Assembly (NCBI GenBank): GCA_020628145.1
Contig: JAHDFN010000010.1
Coordinates: forward strand, 1 to 36,773
Reading direction: 5' to 3'
Length of the DNA stretch: 36,773 nucleotides
Source of the DNA: Saprospiraceae bacterium
GTDB taxonomy: Bacteria > Bacteroidota > Bacteroidia > Chitinophagales > Saprospiraceae
The notes beneath the pieces are model-generated. The model was not told the origin of the DNA. It was given only the letters and a program-made list of their open reading frames with translations, and searched no databases. Of the stretch, positions 15,768 to 36,773 are shown piece by piece (the first letter of the stretch is position 1; every line of letters begins with the position of its first letter). The translations under genes were made by a program, and so were the position numbers.

Positions 15768-16910
15768 ATGACTCATCACAAAATAAGGATAGTACTATTC
15801 TGTTTATCCTTCCTGTTTTTTTTATCCGGAAGTCTCTCAGCTCAAGGAGGAGACGACATTTATTTCGATCCTGAATTCGGAGATTGGGACGAATACGGTA
15901 ACGACGATGACATATTAGATGATGTCTTTGACGAAGGAGAGTATGATTTAACTATGAGAGAAATCCGACGTATCCGAAGGTTTTACCGTTCATTTTATGT
16001 TTCGGCCATTGTCCATTCCCAAATCTCCCGAATGATGGATGAATATTGGTATTGGAGGGAGTTCCGCCGTTATCATCGGCCATTCCGTTCTTGGATACAT
16101 TGGGGACACCATCATCATTGGGGACACCATCATCATTGGGGACACCATCATCATTGGGGACACCATCATCATTGGGGTTCTCCATATTGGACACATCATG
16201 GATATTATGGCTATGGCCATCATAATCCATATTACCACGGATATTCTCCTTATTGGCATCCCTATGGACGAATGGCTCAAGAAAACCAAAGCGTAAGGAC
16301 AATAGGAAGATCCTTGCCAGAGACACAGAAAGGAAAAACAGGCCGAGTCGTTTCTGTAGGAAAACCGAACTCATCAATATCGAAAGGTAATACATTTGTT
16401 CCTCGTCCCGGCTCAGATAAAGCAATTTCAAAAACTCCTATTGAAAATACCGATAGTAGAAATGAAGTCAATCTGATAAAAAACAACAATTCCACTTTTC
16501 CCACTAAGCCCGAAAGAGAAATTGTAAAAGTGGGCCCTCCAAAGGGAACAGGCAAACAACCTATTCAAAAAAGTGAAATAGCCCGACAACCGAGTTTACC
16601 CACTCCTTCAAAAGATGTGGGTAAACACAAAGTACCCAGCCGGGAGAAAACGCAACAAGACCGCCCTCGAAAACAACCTATTGCATCCCGTCCCTCCCGT
16701 TATTCACAAAGAGATTATTCAAAAAAAGGGGGAGTTGCAAAAAAACCTTCAAGGAATTATTCCAAGCCTAAAAGCAAGGGAAGTTCAGGAAGCAAATCCA
16801 AGTACGGTAGTAGTAGAAGTAAGTCCTACAAGGGGAACAATTCCAAAAAACAAACGAGTAAGCCTTACTCTTCTTCCCCTTCCGGTTCCCGAATGAAACA
16901 CAAAAGATAG
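15768..16910 (+). CDS. Secreted protein with GHHHHW repeats and basic C-terminal tail
   Basis: A 380-residue exported protein with no family I recognise. Signal peptide about 1-26 (ending LSAQ). A short acidic stretch follows (about 28-60, Asp/Glu-rich), then an Arg/Tyr/Trp-rich helix. Next come four exact copies of GHHHHW (residues about 112-135) in a wider His/Tyr/Gly/Trp-rich segment reaching residue 170. The remaining 200 residues are Lys/Arg/Ser/Pro-rich and disordered, ending in a Ser/Lys/Gly tail. The His cluster suggests binding of Ni, Zn or Cu in the periplasm or at the surface, but this is inference from composition. The acidic head and basic tail might also bind each other or other polymers. 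It ends before a clear terminator and appears monocistronic. Confidence 0.75.
   Translation: MTHHKIRIVLFCLSFLFFLSGSLSAQGGDDIYFDPEFGDWDEYGNDDDILDDVFDEGEYDLTMREIRRIRRFYRSFYVSAIVHSQISRMMDEYWYWREFRRYHRPFRSWIHWGHHHHWGHHHHWGHHHHWGHHHHWGSPYWTHHGYYGYGHHNPYYHGYSPYWHPYGRMAQENQSVRTIGRSLPETQKGKTGRVVSVGKPNSSISKGNTFVPRPGSDKAISKTPIENTDSRNEVNLIKNNNSTFPTKPEREIVKVGPPKGTGKQPIQKSEIARQPSLPTPSKDVGKHKVPSREKTQQDRPRKQPIASRPSRYSQRDYSKKGGVAKKPSRNYSKPKSKGSSGSKSKYGSSRSKSYKGNNSKKQTSKPYSSSPSGSRMKHKR
16101..16172 (+). repeat. Four perfect 18-bp tandem repeats (GHHHHW)
   Basis: Four identical copies of TGGGGACACCATCATCAT occupy 16101-16118, 16119-16136, 16137-16154 and 16155-16172, followed by a partial TGGGG. Identity at the DNA level, including synonymous positions, indicates recent slippage-type expansion within the secreted His-rich gene. 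Confidence 0.9.
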
Positions 16911-30365: not shown

Positions 30366-31610
30366 TTACCTGATAAGGGTTATACTCCCAAATTGCTTAC
30401 GTTCACTACCATTACAGATGTATTTCATTTTGTAAAGAAATACTCCGGGGTTGAGCATCTTACCCCCAAGCGAACCATCCCATTGGTCAAACGGGCTATC
30501 TGTATGGAATACCCGACCACCCCAACGATCATAAATTTCAAACGAAATGAGTTCTTCCATCGCAAATGGATTACTGACCCCTACCGTTTCATTGGATGCA
30601 GGGCCTGTTCCATTCGGCGTAAAGGCTCTGGGAACGAAAACCTTTTCACAATCCAGTGAAGCAGGATCTATGACCGTAACAACTATCGAATCCCTTGCTC
30701 TACAACCATTATCATCAATCATTTCCAAAGTATATGTCGTCGATAAGGTAGGGGATAAGGTAGGGGTTCCCGAACTGGGGTCATCTACTCCGTCAGTCGG
30801 CGTCCATGAAAAATTGGTAACACAGGTATTTGGAAGAAAAACATCCAAGGTTTGACCTAAGTATAATAAGGTATCCCTATTCCCAATTCGATCCGGTGCG
30901 AAGTATAATTGCTCTACTTCGTCTTCTAATAAATCCCGGCTATATACAATCAATTCATCGATATAACCTTTGAAGCGATTGACATTAGACCCTACACAAG
31001 GGCTATCCGCCAATGCCAAAACAGCATTGTTTTCCAAGTCTATTCTAGAAATAGCAGTTCCCACCGCTTCTTCTATTCCATTCAAATAAAGCCTGGTTCT
31101 CCCTGCTTTCCGTACAATCACTACATGATGCCAACAATTATCAAAATTAAGATTACCGATGGCTGATGAATTCTTATCAAAATCTTCACTCAGGTCGGCA
31201 GAAAGAGTACCGAAATTGGGACGGTAATCCACACTGAAGGAATTGTCCGGCCCACAATCTTCCCTTTTGGAAAGGATGTCCTGCGGAAGCGGAGATCCAA
31301 ACGGTTTGAAATAAAAGCTCACTGTAAAATTATCCGTTCCAAAGTAATTGTTAACCAAACCGAGAAAAAGGATATGATCATTCAAACCATCAAATTCCAA
31401 TGCATTACCCGAAACACCGCAAACACAATCCGGCGTACCGACGATAACTCCGTCCGAGCCATTACCCGAATCGTCAAAGGCATCACAATTATCAAAAGAA
31501 TAATAGGCAATCAATCCGTCCGTCACGGGTGGTTGTGTCCAACCCTGCGAATAGCAAACCCACAACAGGAAAAATGTCAGTATTGTCTTATTGTTCATTC
31601 TTGTATTCAT
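30366..31610 (-). CDS. Secreted LamG-domain protein with T9SS type B sorting domain
   Basis: About 414 residues from the ATG at 31610. A nearby ATG at 31598 is also possible, and one at 31634 would overlap the previous gene. Signal peptide NNKTILTFFLLWVCYSQGWTQ. A concanavalin-A-like LamG domain follows (about 30-235: GLIAYYSFDNCDAFDDSGNG, ALEFDGLNDHI, FTVSFYFKP, WHHVVIVRKAGRTRLYLNG, GYIDELIVYSRDLLEDEVEQLY). Next is a short PKD/Ig-like stretch (FSWTPTDGVDDPSSG, YTLEMIDDNGC). The gliding-motility-type C-terminal domain starts with FVPRAFTPNG and runs through YDRWGGRVF and WDG to the C-terminal GSITLIR. That domain marks it as cargo of the T9SS, placed on the cell surface. Carbohydrate or protein binding is likely for the LamG part. 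Confidence 0.88.
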   Translation of the reverse strand: MNTRMNNKTILTFFLLWVCYSQGWTQPPVTDGLIAYYSFDNCDAFDDSGNGSDGVIVGTPDCVCGVSGNALEFDGLNDHILFLGLVNNYFGTDNFTVSFYFKPFGSPLPQDILSKREDCGPDNSFSVDYRPNFGTLSADLSEDFDKNSSAIGNLNFDNCWHHVVIVRKAGRTRLYLNGIEEAVGTAISRIDLENNAVLALADSPCVGSNVNRFKGYIDELIVYSRDLLEDEVEQLYFAPDRIGNRDTLLYLGQTLDVFLPNTCVTNFSWTPTDGVDDPSSGTPTLSPTLSTTYTLEMIDDNGCRARDSIVVTVIDPASLDCEKVFVPRAFTPNGTGPASNETVGVSNPFAMEELISFEIYDRWGGRVFHTDSPFDQWDGSLGGKMLNPGVFLYKMKYICNGSERKQFGSITLIR

Positions 31611-31620
31611 TAGCATCTTG

Positions 31621-31935
31621 TCACATTCCTCCAAAAAGATTCCCTAATCCGGGAGGGAGCAAATCGTTGACCATTTTCTGTGATTCTTCGGCTTCTTTTT
31701 CCGCCGCCTTATCCAGTGCTCGATTGAGTACCGTCAAAAGAAGATCTTCTAATTCTTCATTATCCCCCGAAGACATCTTATCAGGATTAATCGAAATATT
31801 GAGGATCTGCCTATTGGCATTAACCGTCACGGAAACGGCACCACCTGAAATAGTATCCTGTATCTCCATCTTAGAGAGTTTTTCATGGATTTCGGCTTTC
31901 TTGGATTCCATGTTCCCCATCAAATCTCCGAACAT
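31621..31935 (-). CDS. ybaB: YbaB/EbfC nucleoid-associated protein
   Basis: A 104-residue small DNA-binding dimer of the YbaB/EbfC family, which coats and shapes the nucleoid. The helix-strand-helix layout is visible: a charged N-terminal helix, GAVSVTVNANRQILNISINPD in the strands, then EELEDLLLTVLNRALDKAAEKEAEESQKMVNDL. The C-terminus PPGLGNLFGGM is typical. In many bacteria ybaB follows dnaX and precedes recR, but here it stands between porX and a cargo gene. A TAttTTTG element on the minus strand (31992-31985) just after the PorX stop could drive it. Confidence 0.92.
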   Translation of the reverse strand: MFGDLMGNMESKKAEIHEKLSKMEIQDTISGGAVSVTVNANRQILNISINPDKMSSGDNEELEDLLLTVLNRALDKAAEKEAEESQKMVNDLLPPGLGNLFGGM

Positions 31936-31989: not shown

Positions 31990-33552
31990 TTACTTGGGAC
32001 TCAACTTTATAAAAGGACAAATGATTTCTTCTAATGAAATCCCACCATGTTGGAAGGTGTCCCGGTAATAATTATTATAATAATTATAGTTATTAGGATA
32101 GAGGAAAAACTTATCCTCTTTGGCAAAAATAAATCTTGAACTCACATTTGGACTGGGAAGCAAAGCTTCCTTCGGATTCTTTATTGCCAACACATCCTTA
32201 TTTTCATATTTGAGGTTCTTCCCTACTTTATACCTTAGATTGGTCGTTGTCTCCCTATCTCCCACCACTTTTGACGGCTGCTTGACCCTTATTGTACCAT
32301 GATCGGTTGTAATAATGAGTTTTATATTCTTTCTTGATATTTCTTTGAGTGCTTCCCATAGAGGGGAATGCAAGAACCATGAACGGGTCAAGGAGCGGTA
32401 AGCTCTCTCGTCTCCGGCCAACTGCTTCAGAACTTCCATCTCAGTACGGGCATGGGACAACATATCTATAAAATTATAAACGATGACACTAAGGTCATTG
32501 TTGAGGCTATTGTGGATATTATCCCTCAAGGTCGTGGCATGTGTAGAATTGACGACCTTCGTATAATCAAACTTAGGGGCATTGCGAAAAGTCCTTCTCA
32601 ACTGTTCTCGAAGCAAATCCTCTTCATGAAGGTTCTTACCTCCTTTCTCATTATCATTTTTCCACCAATCGGGATAATATTCCTCAATCTCAGAAGGCAT
32701 TAATCCAGAAAAAATCGCATTCCGACTGTATTGAGTAGCCGTTGGCAAAATAGAAAAGAAGAAATTTTCCTCATCCACCCTGTAATATTCGGAGATAATG
32801 GGTTCAATCACCTTCCATTGATCGTACCTGAGATTATCTAACAAAAGGAAAATAGTAGGGGTTTCTTCATTGATATCCTCAAATACCTTCTCCCTCATTA
32901 GATTATGGGAAAATACAGGAGCCCGGTCGGTCTCGTCATACAACCAATCCACATAGCTTTTTTCTATGAATTTAGAAAATTCGATGTTGGCTTCACTTTT
33001 TTGCATCGAAAGGATATTGGCCATTTCCGAAGTATCCGAATTATCGATTTTGATTTCCCAATTGATAATCTTCTTATATATATCTGCCCATTCCAGATAA
33101 TTCAATCCGCTATTGATCTTTGAGAAAATTTCCCCGAACTGTTCCCTATAATCCGATGAGGTTTTTTCTTTGACCAACTCCTTCTTATCTATAATCTTCT
33201 TGAGGGTTAGCAATATCTGGTTGGGATTGACCGGCTTAATCAGATAATCCGTAATCTGGGCGCCGATAGCCTCTTCCATCACATTTTCCGCCTCGTTTTT
33301 AGTTATCATTACAACCGGCAAATGTGGGTTGATTTGTTTGATCTTGTTCAATGTTTCCAATCCTGTAAGCCCCGGCATGCTTTCATCCAGAAAAACAACA
33401 TCGATATCATTGTATTCCTCACACTCTTCAACCGCATCATGTCCATTGGTAACTGTGATCACGTCATATCCTTTTTTTTCAAGGAACATGACTTGGGGTT
33501 TCAACAAGTCGATTTCATCATCCGCCCAAAGGATCGTTATTTGATTACTCAT
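31990..33552 (-). CDS. porX: T9SS response regulator PorX (REC + PglZ)
   Basis: A 520-residue orphan response regulator. An N-terminal receiver domain (1-120) has the acidic pair Asp11/Asp12, phospho-acceptor Asp56 (VFLDESMPG), Thr84 and Lys107. A helical linker follows. The C-terminal PglZ domain of the alkaline-phosphatase superfamily (about 200-520) has IFLLLDNLRYDQW, TQYSRNAIFSGLMP and the metal-binding TTDHGT. There is no DNA-binding domain. In Porphyromonas gingivalis and flavobacteria PorX pairs with histidine kinase PorY and controls type IX secretion, and its PglZ domain has been shown to act as a zinc phosphodiesterase on oligonucleotides. A TAttTTTG (33652-33645) lies upstream on the minus strand. 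Confidence 0.94.
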   Translation of the reverse strand: MSNQITILWADDEIDLLKPQVMFLEKKGYDVITVTNGHDAVEECEEYNDIDVVFLDESMPGLTGLETLNKIKQINPHLPVVMITKNEAENVMEEAIGAQITDYLIKPVNPNQILLTLKKIIDKKELVKEKTSSDYREQFGEIFSKINSGLNYLEWADIYKKIINWEIKIDNSDTSEMANILSMQKSEANIEFSKFIEKSYVDWLYDETDRAPVFSHNLMREKVFEDINEETPTIFLLLDNLRYDQWKVIEPIISEYYRVDEENFFFSILPTATQYSRNAIFSGLMPSEIEEYYPDWWKNDNEKGGKNLHEEDLLREQLRRTFRNAPKFDYTKVVNSTHATTLRDNIHNSLNNDLSVIVYNFIDMLSHARTEMEVLKQLAGDERAYRSLTRSWFLHSPLWEALKEISRKNIKLIITTDHGTIRVKQPSKVVGDRETTTNLRYKVGKNLKYENKDVLAIKNPKEALLPSPNVSSRFIFAKEDKFFLYPNNYNYYNNYYRDTFQHGGISLEEIICPFIKLSPK

Positions 33553-33748: not shown

Positions 33749-33886
33749 ATGGGCAAAGCAACCCTTTTACCGTTTCCACAGTCTTGTTTGTGCATATTTT
33801 ATGGGAAAAAAGATTCCCTGTTGGCTTTGAAAACAGAAAGGGTTGTATCTCAGCAAGGTTTACAATTAAATTTTCTTAATGAATAA
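33749..33886 (+). CDS. Possible 45-residue leader ORF overlapping the HD-domain gene
   Basis: ATG at 33749 opens a 45-codon frame whose stop (33884-33886) overlaps the start of the HD-domain gene by 8 bases (ATGAATAA). The peptide (starts MGKATLLPFPQSCLCIFYG) matches nothing I know. The end-to-start overlap is what a translationally coupled leader would show. It could equally be chance. Confidence 0.28.
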   Translation: MGKATLLPFPQSCLCIFYGKKDSLLALKTERVVSQQGLQLNFLNE

Positions 33887-35096
33887 ACGTAAAATCATTA
33901 ATGATCCGGTTTACGGATTTGTAACCATCCCCTTCGATATCATTTATGATTTGATGGAACACAAATGGTTCCAACGATTACGAAGGATTAAGCAACTTGC
34001 ATTAACCCACTATGTTTATCCCGGTGCATTGCACACCCGATTCCATCATGCTTTGGGTGCCTTACATCTAACCGGTCAAGCTATTGACGTATTACGTTCA
34101 AAAGGAACGATGATTTCAGAAGAAGAAGCAGAAGCAGTATCCATAGCGATTTTGCTTCATGACATAGGACACGGCCCTTTTTCACATGCCCTCGAACATA
34201 CCTTGATGAATATCCACCATGAAGAACTTTCTGTTCTTTTCATGGAAAAGCTCAATAAGGAATTCAATGGACGGTTGGACATGGCCATTTCTATTTTCAA
34301 CAATCAATATCCTAAGAAATTCCTTTACCAATTGGTTTCAGGCCAATTGGATATGGACAGAATGGATTATCTCAATAGGGATAGTTTTTTCACAGGAGTC
34401 CATGAAGGAGTAATCGGATATCACCGCATCATCAAGATGTTGGTTGTTCAGGATAATGAATTGGTTGTGGAAGAGAAGGGACTTTATTCCATAGAAAGGT
34501 TTCTTACTGCAAGGAGATTGATGTATTGGCAGGTTTACTTACATAAAACCACTCTTGTTGCCGAACAGATGCTCATCAAAACATTGAATCGAGCAAAATA
34601 TCTGGCTACAAAGAAAAAAATAGTTACGCCTTCATCTCATCTCAACTTCTTCCTGAATAGCAATCTTAGTTCAAATGATTTGGAAAGAATCGGTGATGAA
34701 ATCATTTACCACTATTCCAATTTAGATGATACGGACATTGTCATCGCCCTCAAAATGTTTGCAAAAAATGATGATTTCCTATTGTCTTTTTTAGCCAATG
34801 GGCTACTCTATAGGAAATTATTTAGAATTGAAATACAAAACACCCCTTTTGGCAGTGACTACATCGCCAAAATCCGTCAAAAAACCACTAATGCATATCA
34901 ACATAAAGATGTTGATGCCAACGATTTGATTTCCATCGGACAGGAAAGCAATACGACATACTCCACAAAAAAGGATGAAATAAAAATCCTATTGAAAAAT
35001 GGAACTGTCAAACCGATGTCTGAAGTGGATACACTTAACATTCCACAGGAAATAATCACCAAGCATTATTTATGCTATCCGAAAACAAAATCGTAA
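33879..35096 (+). CDS. HD-domain phosphohydrolase
   Basis: A 405-residue cytoplasmic protein of the dGTPase-related HD family. The N-terminus has the conserved INDPVYGFVTIPFDIIYDLMEHKWFQRLRRIKQLALTHYVYPGA block. The metal-binding H...HD...D set is in TRFHHALGALH and LLHDIGHGPFSHALEHTL, with a later Asp in SGQLDMDRMDYLNRD. These enzymes hydrolyse dNTPs or similar nucleotides. The substrate is not determined. The C-terminal 150 residues are mostly helical. In several Bacteroidota I recall such a gene lying next to porX, as here, where it is divergent from porX. The gene is followed by a 273-base leader and the repeat-protein gene. Confidence 0.9.
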   Translation: MNKRKIINDPVYGFVTIPFDIIYDLMEHKWFQRLRRIKQLALTHYVYPGALHTRFHHALGALHLTGQAIDVLRSKGTMISEEEAEAVSIAILLHDIGHGPFSHALEHTLMNIHHEELSVLFMEKLNKEFNGRLDMAISIFNNQYPKKFLYQLVSGQLDMDRMDYLNRDSFFTGVHEGVIGYHRIIKMLVVQDNELVVEEKGLYSIERFLTARRLMYWQVYLHKTTLVAEQMLIKTLNRAKYLATKKKIVTPSSHLNFFLNSNLSSNDLERIGDEIIYHYSNLDDTDIVIALKMFAKNDDFLLSFLANGLLYRKLFRIEIQNTPFGSDYIAKIRQKTTNAYQHKDVDANDLISIGQESNTTYSTKKDEIKILLKNGTVKPMSEVDTLNIPQEIITKHYLCYPKTKS

Positions 35097-35369: not shown

Positions 35370-36773
35370 ATGAAAAAATTGAACCTGATTCTTGGAGTAG
35401 TTTTCGTGCTTTTTGCCGTAGCTGCTACAGCTCAGCCAGGTATCGATGCACCAATCGAACGTGAACCCGGAAAATGCTACGCTAAGTGTATGATCCAGGA
35501 CCGTTATGATACAGTGTCCGAGACTGTTGAGACCAAGGGAGCTTCTTCTCGTACAGAAGTTGTTCCAGGTGAGTATGAAACCGTAACCGAACAAGTTGTG
35601 GTTGCTGAAGAAAGCCGTCGTCTCATTCCTGTGCCTGCTGAGTATGAAACTGTTTCCGAACAGTATGAAAGTGCTCCTGCAAGTTCTACATTAAGAGTTG
35701 TTCCTGCTCAATATGAGACAGTAACTGAGCAAGTATTGGTGGCTGATGAAAGCCGTCGCTTAATTGCCGTTCCTGCTGAATATGAGACAGTAAGTGAACA
35801 AGTCGTAACTGCCGAAGCTAGTAGCCGTCTTGTTGCCGTTCCTGCACAATACGAAACAGTAACCGAGCAAGTAATGACTGCTGATGAAAGCCGTCGTTTA
35901 ATTGCCGTTCCTGCCGAGTATGAAACAGTAACTGAGCAAGTAATGACTAAAGATGCTTCTTCTACACTTGTTGCCGTTCCTGCTCAATATGAGACAGTAA
36001 CCGAGCAAGTAGAAACTCAACCTGCTTCTTCACGTTTGATCGCCGTTCCTGCTCAATTCGAGACAGTAACCGAGCAAGTGATGACCAAGGATGCTTCTTC
36101 TACACTTGTGGCTGTTCCTGCTCAATATGAGACAGTGACCGAGCAAGTAGAAACCCAACCGGCTTCTACACGTTTGATCGCTGTTCCTGCTGAGTATGAG
36201 ACAGTAACTGAACAAGTAATGGTTAAGCCTGAGTCTCGCCGTTTAATTGTTGTTCCTGCTCAATTCGAGACAGTAACTGAACAAGTAATGACTAAAGCTG
36301 AGTCACGTCGTCTAATAGCTGTTCCTGCTCAATATGAGACAGTAACTGAAACTGTTGGAGGTGATGATGCCGGTTCAAGACTTGAAGTTGTTCCTGCTCA
36401 ATATGAGACAGTAACCGAACAAGTAATGGTTAAGCCTGAATCTCGTCGTCTAATAGCTGTTCCTGCTCAATTCGAGACAGTAACTGAAACTGTTGGAGGT
36501 GATGATGCCGGTTCAAGACTTGAAGTTGTTCCTGCTCAATACGAGACAGTAACCGAACAAGTAATGGTGGCTGAAGAAAGCCGTCGTTTGATTGCCGTTC
36601 CTGCCGAGTATGAAACAGTAACTGAACAAGTAATGGTAGCTGAAGAAAGCCGTCGTTTGATTGTTGTTCCTGCTGAGTACGAAACCGTAACTGAACAAGT
36701 AGAGGGCTCTCAAGCTTCTACACGTTTGATTGCTGTTCCTGCTCAATATGAGACAGTAACTGAACAAGTAATG
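35370..36773 (+). CDS. Secreted repeat protein of 23-residue VPAxYETVTEQ units (partial)
   Basis: 468 codons, open at the right edge. Signal peptide about 1-22 (KKLNLILGVVFVLFAVAATAQ). A short linker holds two Cys in GKCYAKC (36 and 40). From residue 42 the protein consists only of 23-residue units: one degenerate unit (42-64), then 18 units whose VP lies at residue 65+23k (65 to 456, last one cut), with no indel. Core: VPA[QE][YF]ETVTEQV, then a variable decapeptide such as MVKPESRRLIA or GGDDAGSRLEV. Hydrophobic and polar residues alternate, suggesting beta strands in a rod. CYAKC followed by a few YETVTEQV-type units occurs, as I recall, in OmpA-family proteins, where an OmpA peptidoglycan-binding domain follows, but the end is not visible. 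Arginine codons are nearly all CGT, unlike neighbouring genes, suggesting high expression. Confidence 0.85.
   Translation, partial: MKKLNLILGVVFVLFAVAATAQPGIDAPIEREPGKCYAKCMIQDRYDTVSETVETKGASSRTEVVPGEYETVTEQVVVAEESRRLIPVPAEYETVSEQYESAPASSTLRVVPAQYETVTEQVLVADESRRLIAVPAEYETVSEQVVTAEASSRLVAVPAQYETVTEQVMTADESRRLIAVPAEYETVTEQVMTKDASSTLVAVPAQYETVTEQVETQPASSRLIAVPAQFETVTEQVMTKDASSTLVAVPAQYETVTEQVETQPASTRLIAVPAEYETVTEQVMVKPESRRLIVVPAQFETVTEQVMTKAESRRLIAVPAQYETVTETVGGDDAGSRLEVVPAQYETVTEQVMVKPESRRLIAVPAQFETVTETVGGDDAGSRLEVVPAQYETVTEQVMVAEESRRLIAVPAEYETVTEQVMVAEESRRLIVVPAEYETVTEQVEGSQASTRLIAVPAQYETVTEQVM
35493..36773 (+). repeat. 69-bp tandem repeats, 19 units, continuing past the window
   Basis: Units are exactly 69 bp: a degenerate one at 35493-35561, then regular units starting at 35562 and every 69 bp to 36735. 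Pairs have been duplicated as 138-bp blocks: 35907-36044 with 36045-36182, and 36321-36458 with 36459-36596 encode nearly identical two-unit segments. All units keep the frame. Confidence 0.95.

Follow-up and report, generated by a model that had tools for sequence, protein, structure and literature searches.

A 23-residue repeat array at a Saprospiraceae contig end as the probable first arm of a self-pairing beta hairpin of variable length

Long arms that pair within one polypeptide are known from the SMC and Rad50 proteins, in which antiparallel coiled-coil arms of one chain, far apart in the sequence, pair with each other and therefore must match in length. The peptidoglycan-binding domain PG_binding_1 is known from SltB3 and SleB, where it is found beside an enzyme. 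The literature that was searched, with partial coverage, gave no account of the two-arm repeat family described here. Here we examine a gene at the edge of a 36,773-nucleotide stretch of Saprospiraceae DNA (the window), which is the entire contig C158 of an assembly of 340 contigs that is 92% complete. Quite likely, its product is the N-terminal half of a secreted hairpin protein, probably anchored on peptidoglycan, whose two arms zip together as a length-setting beta ribbon.

The open reading frame at the end of the window was translated and its features are collected in Table 1. An earlier sequence-only reading of 35370..36773 had described a signal peptide, a CYAKC segment and regular 23-residue units running off the edge, and all of these were seen. 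No lipobox cysteine was seen by eye in the signal-peptide-like start. The first unit starts at residue 43 and a new one follows every 23 residues, with no insertion or deletion across the 18 full units and the 12 residues of the 19th, which bears out the strict unit length that had been claimed. The 18 VP positions reported earlier (65+23k) fit this register, and one further, less regular unit (residues 43 to 65) precedes them. TRF detected the array at periods of 69, 138 and 207. Among the 153 pairs of full units the mean pS was 0.57 and the mean pN was 0.27, a ratio of 0.48. The high divergence at silent sites indicates an old array kept by purifying selection, not an assembly stutter, and relatives were found at 79 loci elsewhere (from the best 80 of 122 matching stretches); the possibility of an assembly artefact, raised by the sequence-only reading, was checked on both of these grounds. 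A two-unit block at 36255, with 92% identity to the next 138 bases, is more recent than the rest of the array. The description as a secreted, probably elongated repeat protein is upheld, and the signal peptide, CYxxC start and acidic N-arm of 23-residue units place the gene in the two-arm family described below.

Table 1. Features of the window, with positions counted from its first nucleotide
Feature	Position	Strand	Remark
Open reading frame	35370..36773	+	468 amino acids; 3' end open
Signal peptide	35370..35435	+	residues 1-22, ends in AQ; translation judged by eye
CYAKC, start of the N-arm and base of the putative hairpin	35475..35489	+	residue 36; conserved in the family
N-arm, 18 full 23-residue units and a cut 19th	35496..36773	+	array cut by the contig end
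HD-domain gene	33879..35096	+	upstream; this kind of gene is upstream in 70 of 79 loci (best 80 of 122 stretches)
Response regulator with PglZ domain	31990..33552	-	upstream on the other strand in 59 of 79 loci (best 80 of 122 stretches)
Laminin_G_3 protein with CHU_C type IX secretion domain	30366..31634	-	side observation
Perfect 18-base tandem repeat, 4.4 copies	16098..16177		side observation

The reading frame stops because the contig ends there. Searches with the array DNA, the array protein and the second half of a close relative found no continuation on the other contigs of the assembly, the last of these matching paralogues on contigs C130, C295 and C69; the tip, C-arm and PG-binding domain of the window protein were not found in this assembly. 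OmpA fragments at the starts of contigs C225, C282 and C5 were considered as the missing 3' end and rejected, as their frames are without units or tip. In the 4.3 Mb genome as a whole the OmpA domain search gave 40 matches, of which 38 are over the family cut-off. The window shows one arm only, and we infer its tip, C-arm and anchor from the sequences of relatives. The cut 19th unit reads EQVM at its positions 9 to 12, and none of the tip-adjacent units seen in 75 of 82 complete relatives does so. Being unlike these units, the 19th suggests that each arm of the window protein probably comprises at least 20 units.

When GTDB genomes were scanned for relatives, 122 stretches matched; the analysis uses the best 80 of these (79 loci), most of them labelled Saprospiraceae. 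The neighbourhood of the window gene is similar to that of its relatives; domain names were taken from the window genes, and the match between cluster representative and window gene was judged by eye. The order read from the complete relatives is a signal peptide, CYAKC, an acidic N-arm, a Cys-rich tip, a basic C-arm, WREVxC and PF01471. The consensus unit is PATYETVTEQVLVKEASTRLiVV in the N-arm and PAEYtTRTKRVLKTPATTREEdI in the C-arm. An example of the conserved tip is STKWVKKKADRNCLSADPNDCLVWCLVE, and in an alignment of the tip half from 59 sequences, 12 of the 18 invariant columns fall in the tip. The first unit lies 28 and 17 residues from the tip on the two sides in nearly all rows. PF01471 is over the cut-off in L042, L119, L090, L002, L123 and L182, and L135 scores 19.7 bits, under the 23-bit cut-off; the C-terminal position of PF01471 was shown for L042, L119 and L090 and judged from sequence ends in the other relatives. 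Neither Pfam nor NCBIfam has a credible model for the arms. DUF5372 on the window array and Mrr_cat, HTH_57 and DUF1659 on the L090 arms passed the whole-protein cut-off with no single stretch passing, and these, like the weaker arm matches Tli3 and Dna2_Rift, were taken as repeat-driven noise.

The number of N-arm units was compared across the complete relatives, as the sequence-only reading had proposed, and varies widely, from 4 to 28. An array of 18 or more had been regarded as a large expansion; it is not exceptional, as 19 of the 82 complete relatives have at least that many units in the N-arm. The same reading took the array for a rod or ruler that positions an OmpA-type domain. No PF00691 was reported in the window reading frame, where the C-terminus is missing, and the close complete relatives L042 and L119 have a tip, a second arm and then PF01471, with PF00691 absent. 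In more distant homologues the C-terminal domain is OmpA (demonstrated in L127 and L125, and judged from the sequence end in the rest), with arms of 104/106 residues in L127 and L129, 103/107 in L128, 102/107 in L133 and 265/274 in L125 and L126; L128 and L133 belong to the window's own organism family. Large members, which reach 1712 residues, also carry OmpA domains inserted inside the arms, including two PF00691 domains in L090. Both observations lend something to an OmpA-anchored surface or periplasmic ruler built from a single array, but given the ends of the close relatives this explanation is highly improbable. A T9SS sorting domain, also sought, was not reported in the four complete relatives scanned (L042, L119, L127 and L090). 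An elongated shape is probable, as the rod proposal had it, but the array would be one of two arms and not the whole rod.

The two arms were found to match in length. Complete proteins were obtained from 69 of the 79 loci (best 80 of 122 stretches), and ten loci that were open, masked or missing a motif were set aside (L041, L048, L057, L060, L072, L077, L089, L100, L114 and L117). The N-arm ranges from 127 to 812 residues in these 69 proteins and the arms lie within 12 residues of each other in 57, of which 4 differ by -12 residues and are really one unit apart. In this count a GYTD pattern gave false OmpA calls at +34, and two later analyses are the better guide to inserts. Further genomes were added to give 82 distinct complete proteins, with identical ones counted once (L173 is identical to L047). 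The two arms have equal unit counts in 65 of these; the mismatch is one unit in 13 proteins, two units in 3 and nine units in L079, so that 78 of 82 agree within one unit. Part of the 17 inexact matches may come from assembly or automatic parsing, and the counts of L155 and L164 are wrong because of their Cys loops. Loci L134-L149 were omitted from the length-shuffle set as second views of the same genes. The OmpA pattern used here recognised no insert in 62 of the 82 proteins; it overlooked real inserts in L074, in L097 and in one arm of several others. In 56 of these 62 the arms agree to within 14 residues, compared to a mean of 14.2 and a maximum of 27 proteins over 20,000 shuffles of arms among proteins. 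In 45 of the 62 the arms differ by 10 or 11 residues, reflecting a small Cys loop that the C-arm carries close to the tip; the rest comprise 8 that are off by a unit or two (-12, 34, 56), 7 at 2 to 12 residues and 2 with a hidden OmpA insert.

Arm lengths also change together. Phylogenetic contrasts gave r=0.935 for all proteins (81 contrasts) and r=0.981 for insert-free proteins (53 contrasts), on a tree that was built from the non-array parts, has long branches and contains a possibly false join of L119 and L122. The N-arm differs by at least one unit in 14 of 31 sister pairs. Seven of these 14 show an equal unit change in both arms (one of them being the doubtful pair L119/L122), 5 are one unit apart and 2 are confounded by inserted domains. 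The sisters L076 and L042 differ by 253 residues, or 11 units, in each arm. In the other 17 pairs the C-arm changed by at most one residue in 15, and the C-arm alone changed in L082/L079 and L091/L086. Since the two arms differ in sequence, exchange between them is unlikely to be the equaliser, and the equal lengths are taken to point to physical pairing. If each arm instead formed a single-chain solenoid, such as a beta-helix-like rod, equal arm lengths would be a by-product of history. A strict period of 23 residues falls in the range usual for beta-solenoid coils, but the equal change in 7 of the 14 sister pairs, with 5 more one unit apart, argues against this explanation.

Additional features are mirrored between the arms. 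Extra GCPxGY...C loops are present in five proteins (L101, L102, L116, L155 and L164), and in all five there is one loop per arm, both four units from the tip, as expected if the arms pair. The OmpA inserts are only roughly mirrored: thirteen proteins carry an insert in both arms, and in 12 of them the C-arm insert is more distant from the tip by 0 to 3 units, whereas in L079 it is 5 units nearer the tip than the N-arm insert. In nine proteins (L070, L074, L097, L104, L108, L109, L156, L163 and L172) a C-arm OmpA insert occurs without one in the N-arm, which suggests that the domain can bulge from a single arm.

Covariation between the arms was determined from 401 unit pairs in 49 of the 82 proteins (those with no inserts and standard spacing; effective number about 21.5), with N-unit k compared to C-unit k counted from the tip. 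Mutual information was compared to a null in which the unit order was shuffled within each protein. The antiparallel diagonal i+j=17 was the top diagonal with z=17.6, a value that was reached by 0 of 200 shuffles, and was followed by diagonals 16, 15, 18 and 19; the largest shuffle z was 3.5. The neighbouring diagonals 14-21 also exceed the shuffles, as do some parallel diagonals, with z up to 7.2. When the test was repeated with 60 shuffles, diagonal 17 gave z=20.6 in register and z of -1.2 to 2.0 when the partner was shifted by 1 to 3 units, and the best diagonal at any other shift gave z of 3.4. Opposite charge is enriched on diagonal 17 (net z=10.5 over the shuffles). For N14-C3 the pair KE occurs 142 times and the swap EK 21 times, but KK occurs 19 times; N21-C19 has IR 153 times, ER 45 times and the swap RE 15 times, and N19-C21 has RE 204 times. 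That the signal disappears at neighbouring shifts speaks against coils in which one arm stacks on the next unit of the other arm, and a solenoid of that kind, one form of the solenoid idea in the sequence-only reading, finds no support in the covariation. The parallel diagonals that beat the shuffles and the two-residue breaks between strands in the models described below would suit a solenoid, but the strongest covariation is antiparallel, between the arms and in register only, and a solenoid is very unlikely.

The fold was predicted with AlphaFold2, with a single chain modelled in each case. The tip half of L042 (59 sequences) gave a pLDDT of 89.7, mostly 90 to 95 in the arms, and a pTM of 0.38; full-length L065, for which the alignment comprised 11 sequences, few and similar, gave a pLDDT of 63.2 and a pTM of 0.28. 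Strand pairing was read from strand boundaries in both models. In L065 the boundaries sum to 430 in 12 of 12 strand pairs outside a bulge at the tip and to 420-422 inside it, and in the L042 tip half the sums are 162 in 4 of 4 pairs outside the bulge and 154 in 2 of 2 inside. The sums 430, 162 and 154 all convert to i+j=17 modulo 23. Each unit is predicted to form a 12-residue and a 7-residue strand segment with two-residue breaks in both strands. The prediction of several units, which the sequence-only reading had proposed, favours the pairing of a ribbon. The full-length confidence is weak, and with pTM values this low the ribbon may be straight or coiled. Three lines of evidence carry the pairing claim, and two of these are partly dependent, as the tip-half model shares the family alignment with the covariation test.

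The arms could also pair between molecules, with the N-arm of one chain lying along the C-arm of another to give a fibre or a domain-swapped dimer. Covariation and length matching would look identical in this case, and the models contain one chain. However, the short Cys-rich tip with its near-constant spacings of 28 and 17 residues and the repeat-free form L135, with arms of 55/55, suit a tight turn, and pairing between molecules is considered unlikely. A long antiparallel two-stranded beta ribbon within one chain, closed at the conserved tip and with a wall-binding domain at its open end, is very probably the correct description.

Searches of both models with Foldseek gave no match at E<=0.001, and the confident-looking partial matches of the full-length model were PG-binding domains (SltB3, SleB and similar). 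The best VIA-align result (Z 3.5 over 72 residues at 9.7 A) was to the long hairpins of pore stems. A sequence profile compared to the PDB gave no solved relative (lowest E 0.56). That no fold matched does not establish the fold as new. We lean slightly towards a new fibrous class, a self-zippering beta ribbon with co-evolving, countable units that would serve as a length-tunable tether from peptidoglycan to tip.

In the proposed mechanism, the acidic N-arm and the basic C-arm would pair antiparallel along their whole length in the register i+j=17 modulo 23, and the conserved Cys-rich loop would close the far end of the ribbon. The CYAKC segment and the C-terminal PG-binding domain would lie together at the open end, presumably on peptidoglycan, and the invariant tip may be the end that does the work, at a distance from the wall that would differ between species. 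The arms would act as a spacer with the unit number setting the length, and because they must stay in register both would change together. With the textbook rise per residue, a straight ribbon has an upper bound of about 7.6 nm per unit, so that the window member, if straight, would exceed 130 nm and 19 units would span about 140 nm. As this far exceeds the periplasm, the ribbon must coil, lie flat along the wall or project from the cell. A bare two-stranded ribbon of such length would be unusual.

The family extends beyond the close relatives. Of 100 genomes sampled in the window's family the tip model matches 69, counting short and paralogous forms and the window's own genome; it matches 14 of 395 in the phylum, and a longer model matches 7 of 295 in the class, own genome again included. 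A genus mate (G425; L173) has arms of 219/229 residues with 9 units each, compared to at least 19 in the N-arm of the window protein. The less well matched L123 has arms of 87/73, and the paralogue on contig C130 of the window's own genome has 104/106; these arm lengths of the wider family exclude L130, L131 and L132. On contig C295 (L182:1495-3012:-), a BlaR1-type M56 peptidase protein (PF05569) ends in a repeat-free mini module of CYARC, KWVKKK...CLAKDPKDCEVWCLVE, DWTEVIC and PF01471, and is a possible wall sensor. On contig C69 (L186:1153-2091:+) a degenerate relative of 312 residues (E 1.1e-4) begins like a signal peptide and matches nothing in Pfam at E 0.001. Outside the phylum, the one match among plasmids was to Methylobacterium bullatum plasmid 1 (L187:1309-2022:+), a short protein of this alphaproteobacterium with a GETIGCWVE tip flanked on either side by about two units, at a place with no annotated feature. 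L131 (G275:C48), which comes from a different family of the phylum, is very large: its open frame runs to 1251 aa, its N-arm measures 516 residues and its tip differs (DCPSANKEDCMTACY).

These proteins are of an uncharacterised kind and may set the distance from wall to surface. With a similar base and tip and nearly equal arms, from no repeats in L135 to 28 units per arm, the family is a natural length experiment, and it offers a direct test of how tandem repeats at two places in one gene stay matched. The charge swaps and fixed register form a readable pairing code that could serve the design of beta fibres.

Among known proteins, the Bacteroidota CYVRC and CYIKC proteins with a C-terminal OmpA domain share the signal-peptide-like start, CYxxC, repeats, Cys-rich tip and matched arms, but the close relatives of the window gene have PG_binding_1 at the C-terminus, and the measured arms of the OmpA proteins are 102-107 or 265-274 residues. 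PF01471, the C-terminal domain of the window gene's relatives, is shared with SltB3 and SleB, but in these relatives it comes after a repeat hairpin, and no enzyme is recognised beside it. The pore stems of anthrax protective antigen and lysenin resemble the models weakly as long two-stranded hairpins; this likeness is far too weak for kinship, and nothing in the hairpin family points to a pore. The SMC and Rad50 arms are helical and without discrete units, whereas the arms of the hairpin family are predicted to be beta and are built from units that can be counted.
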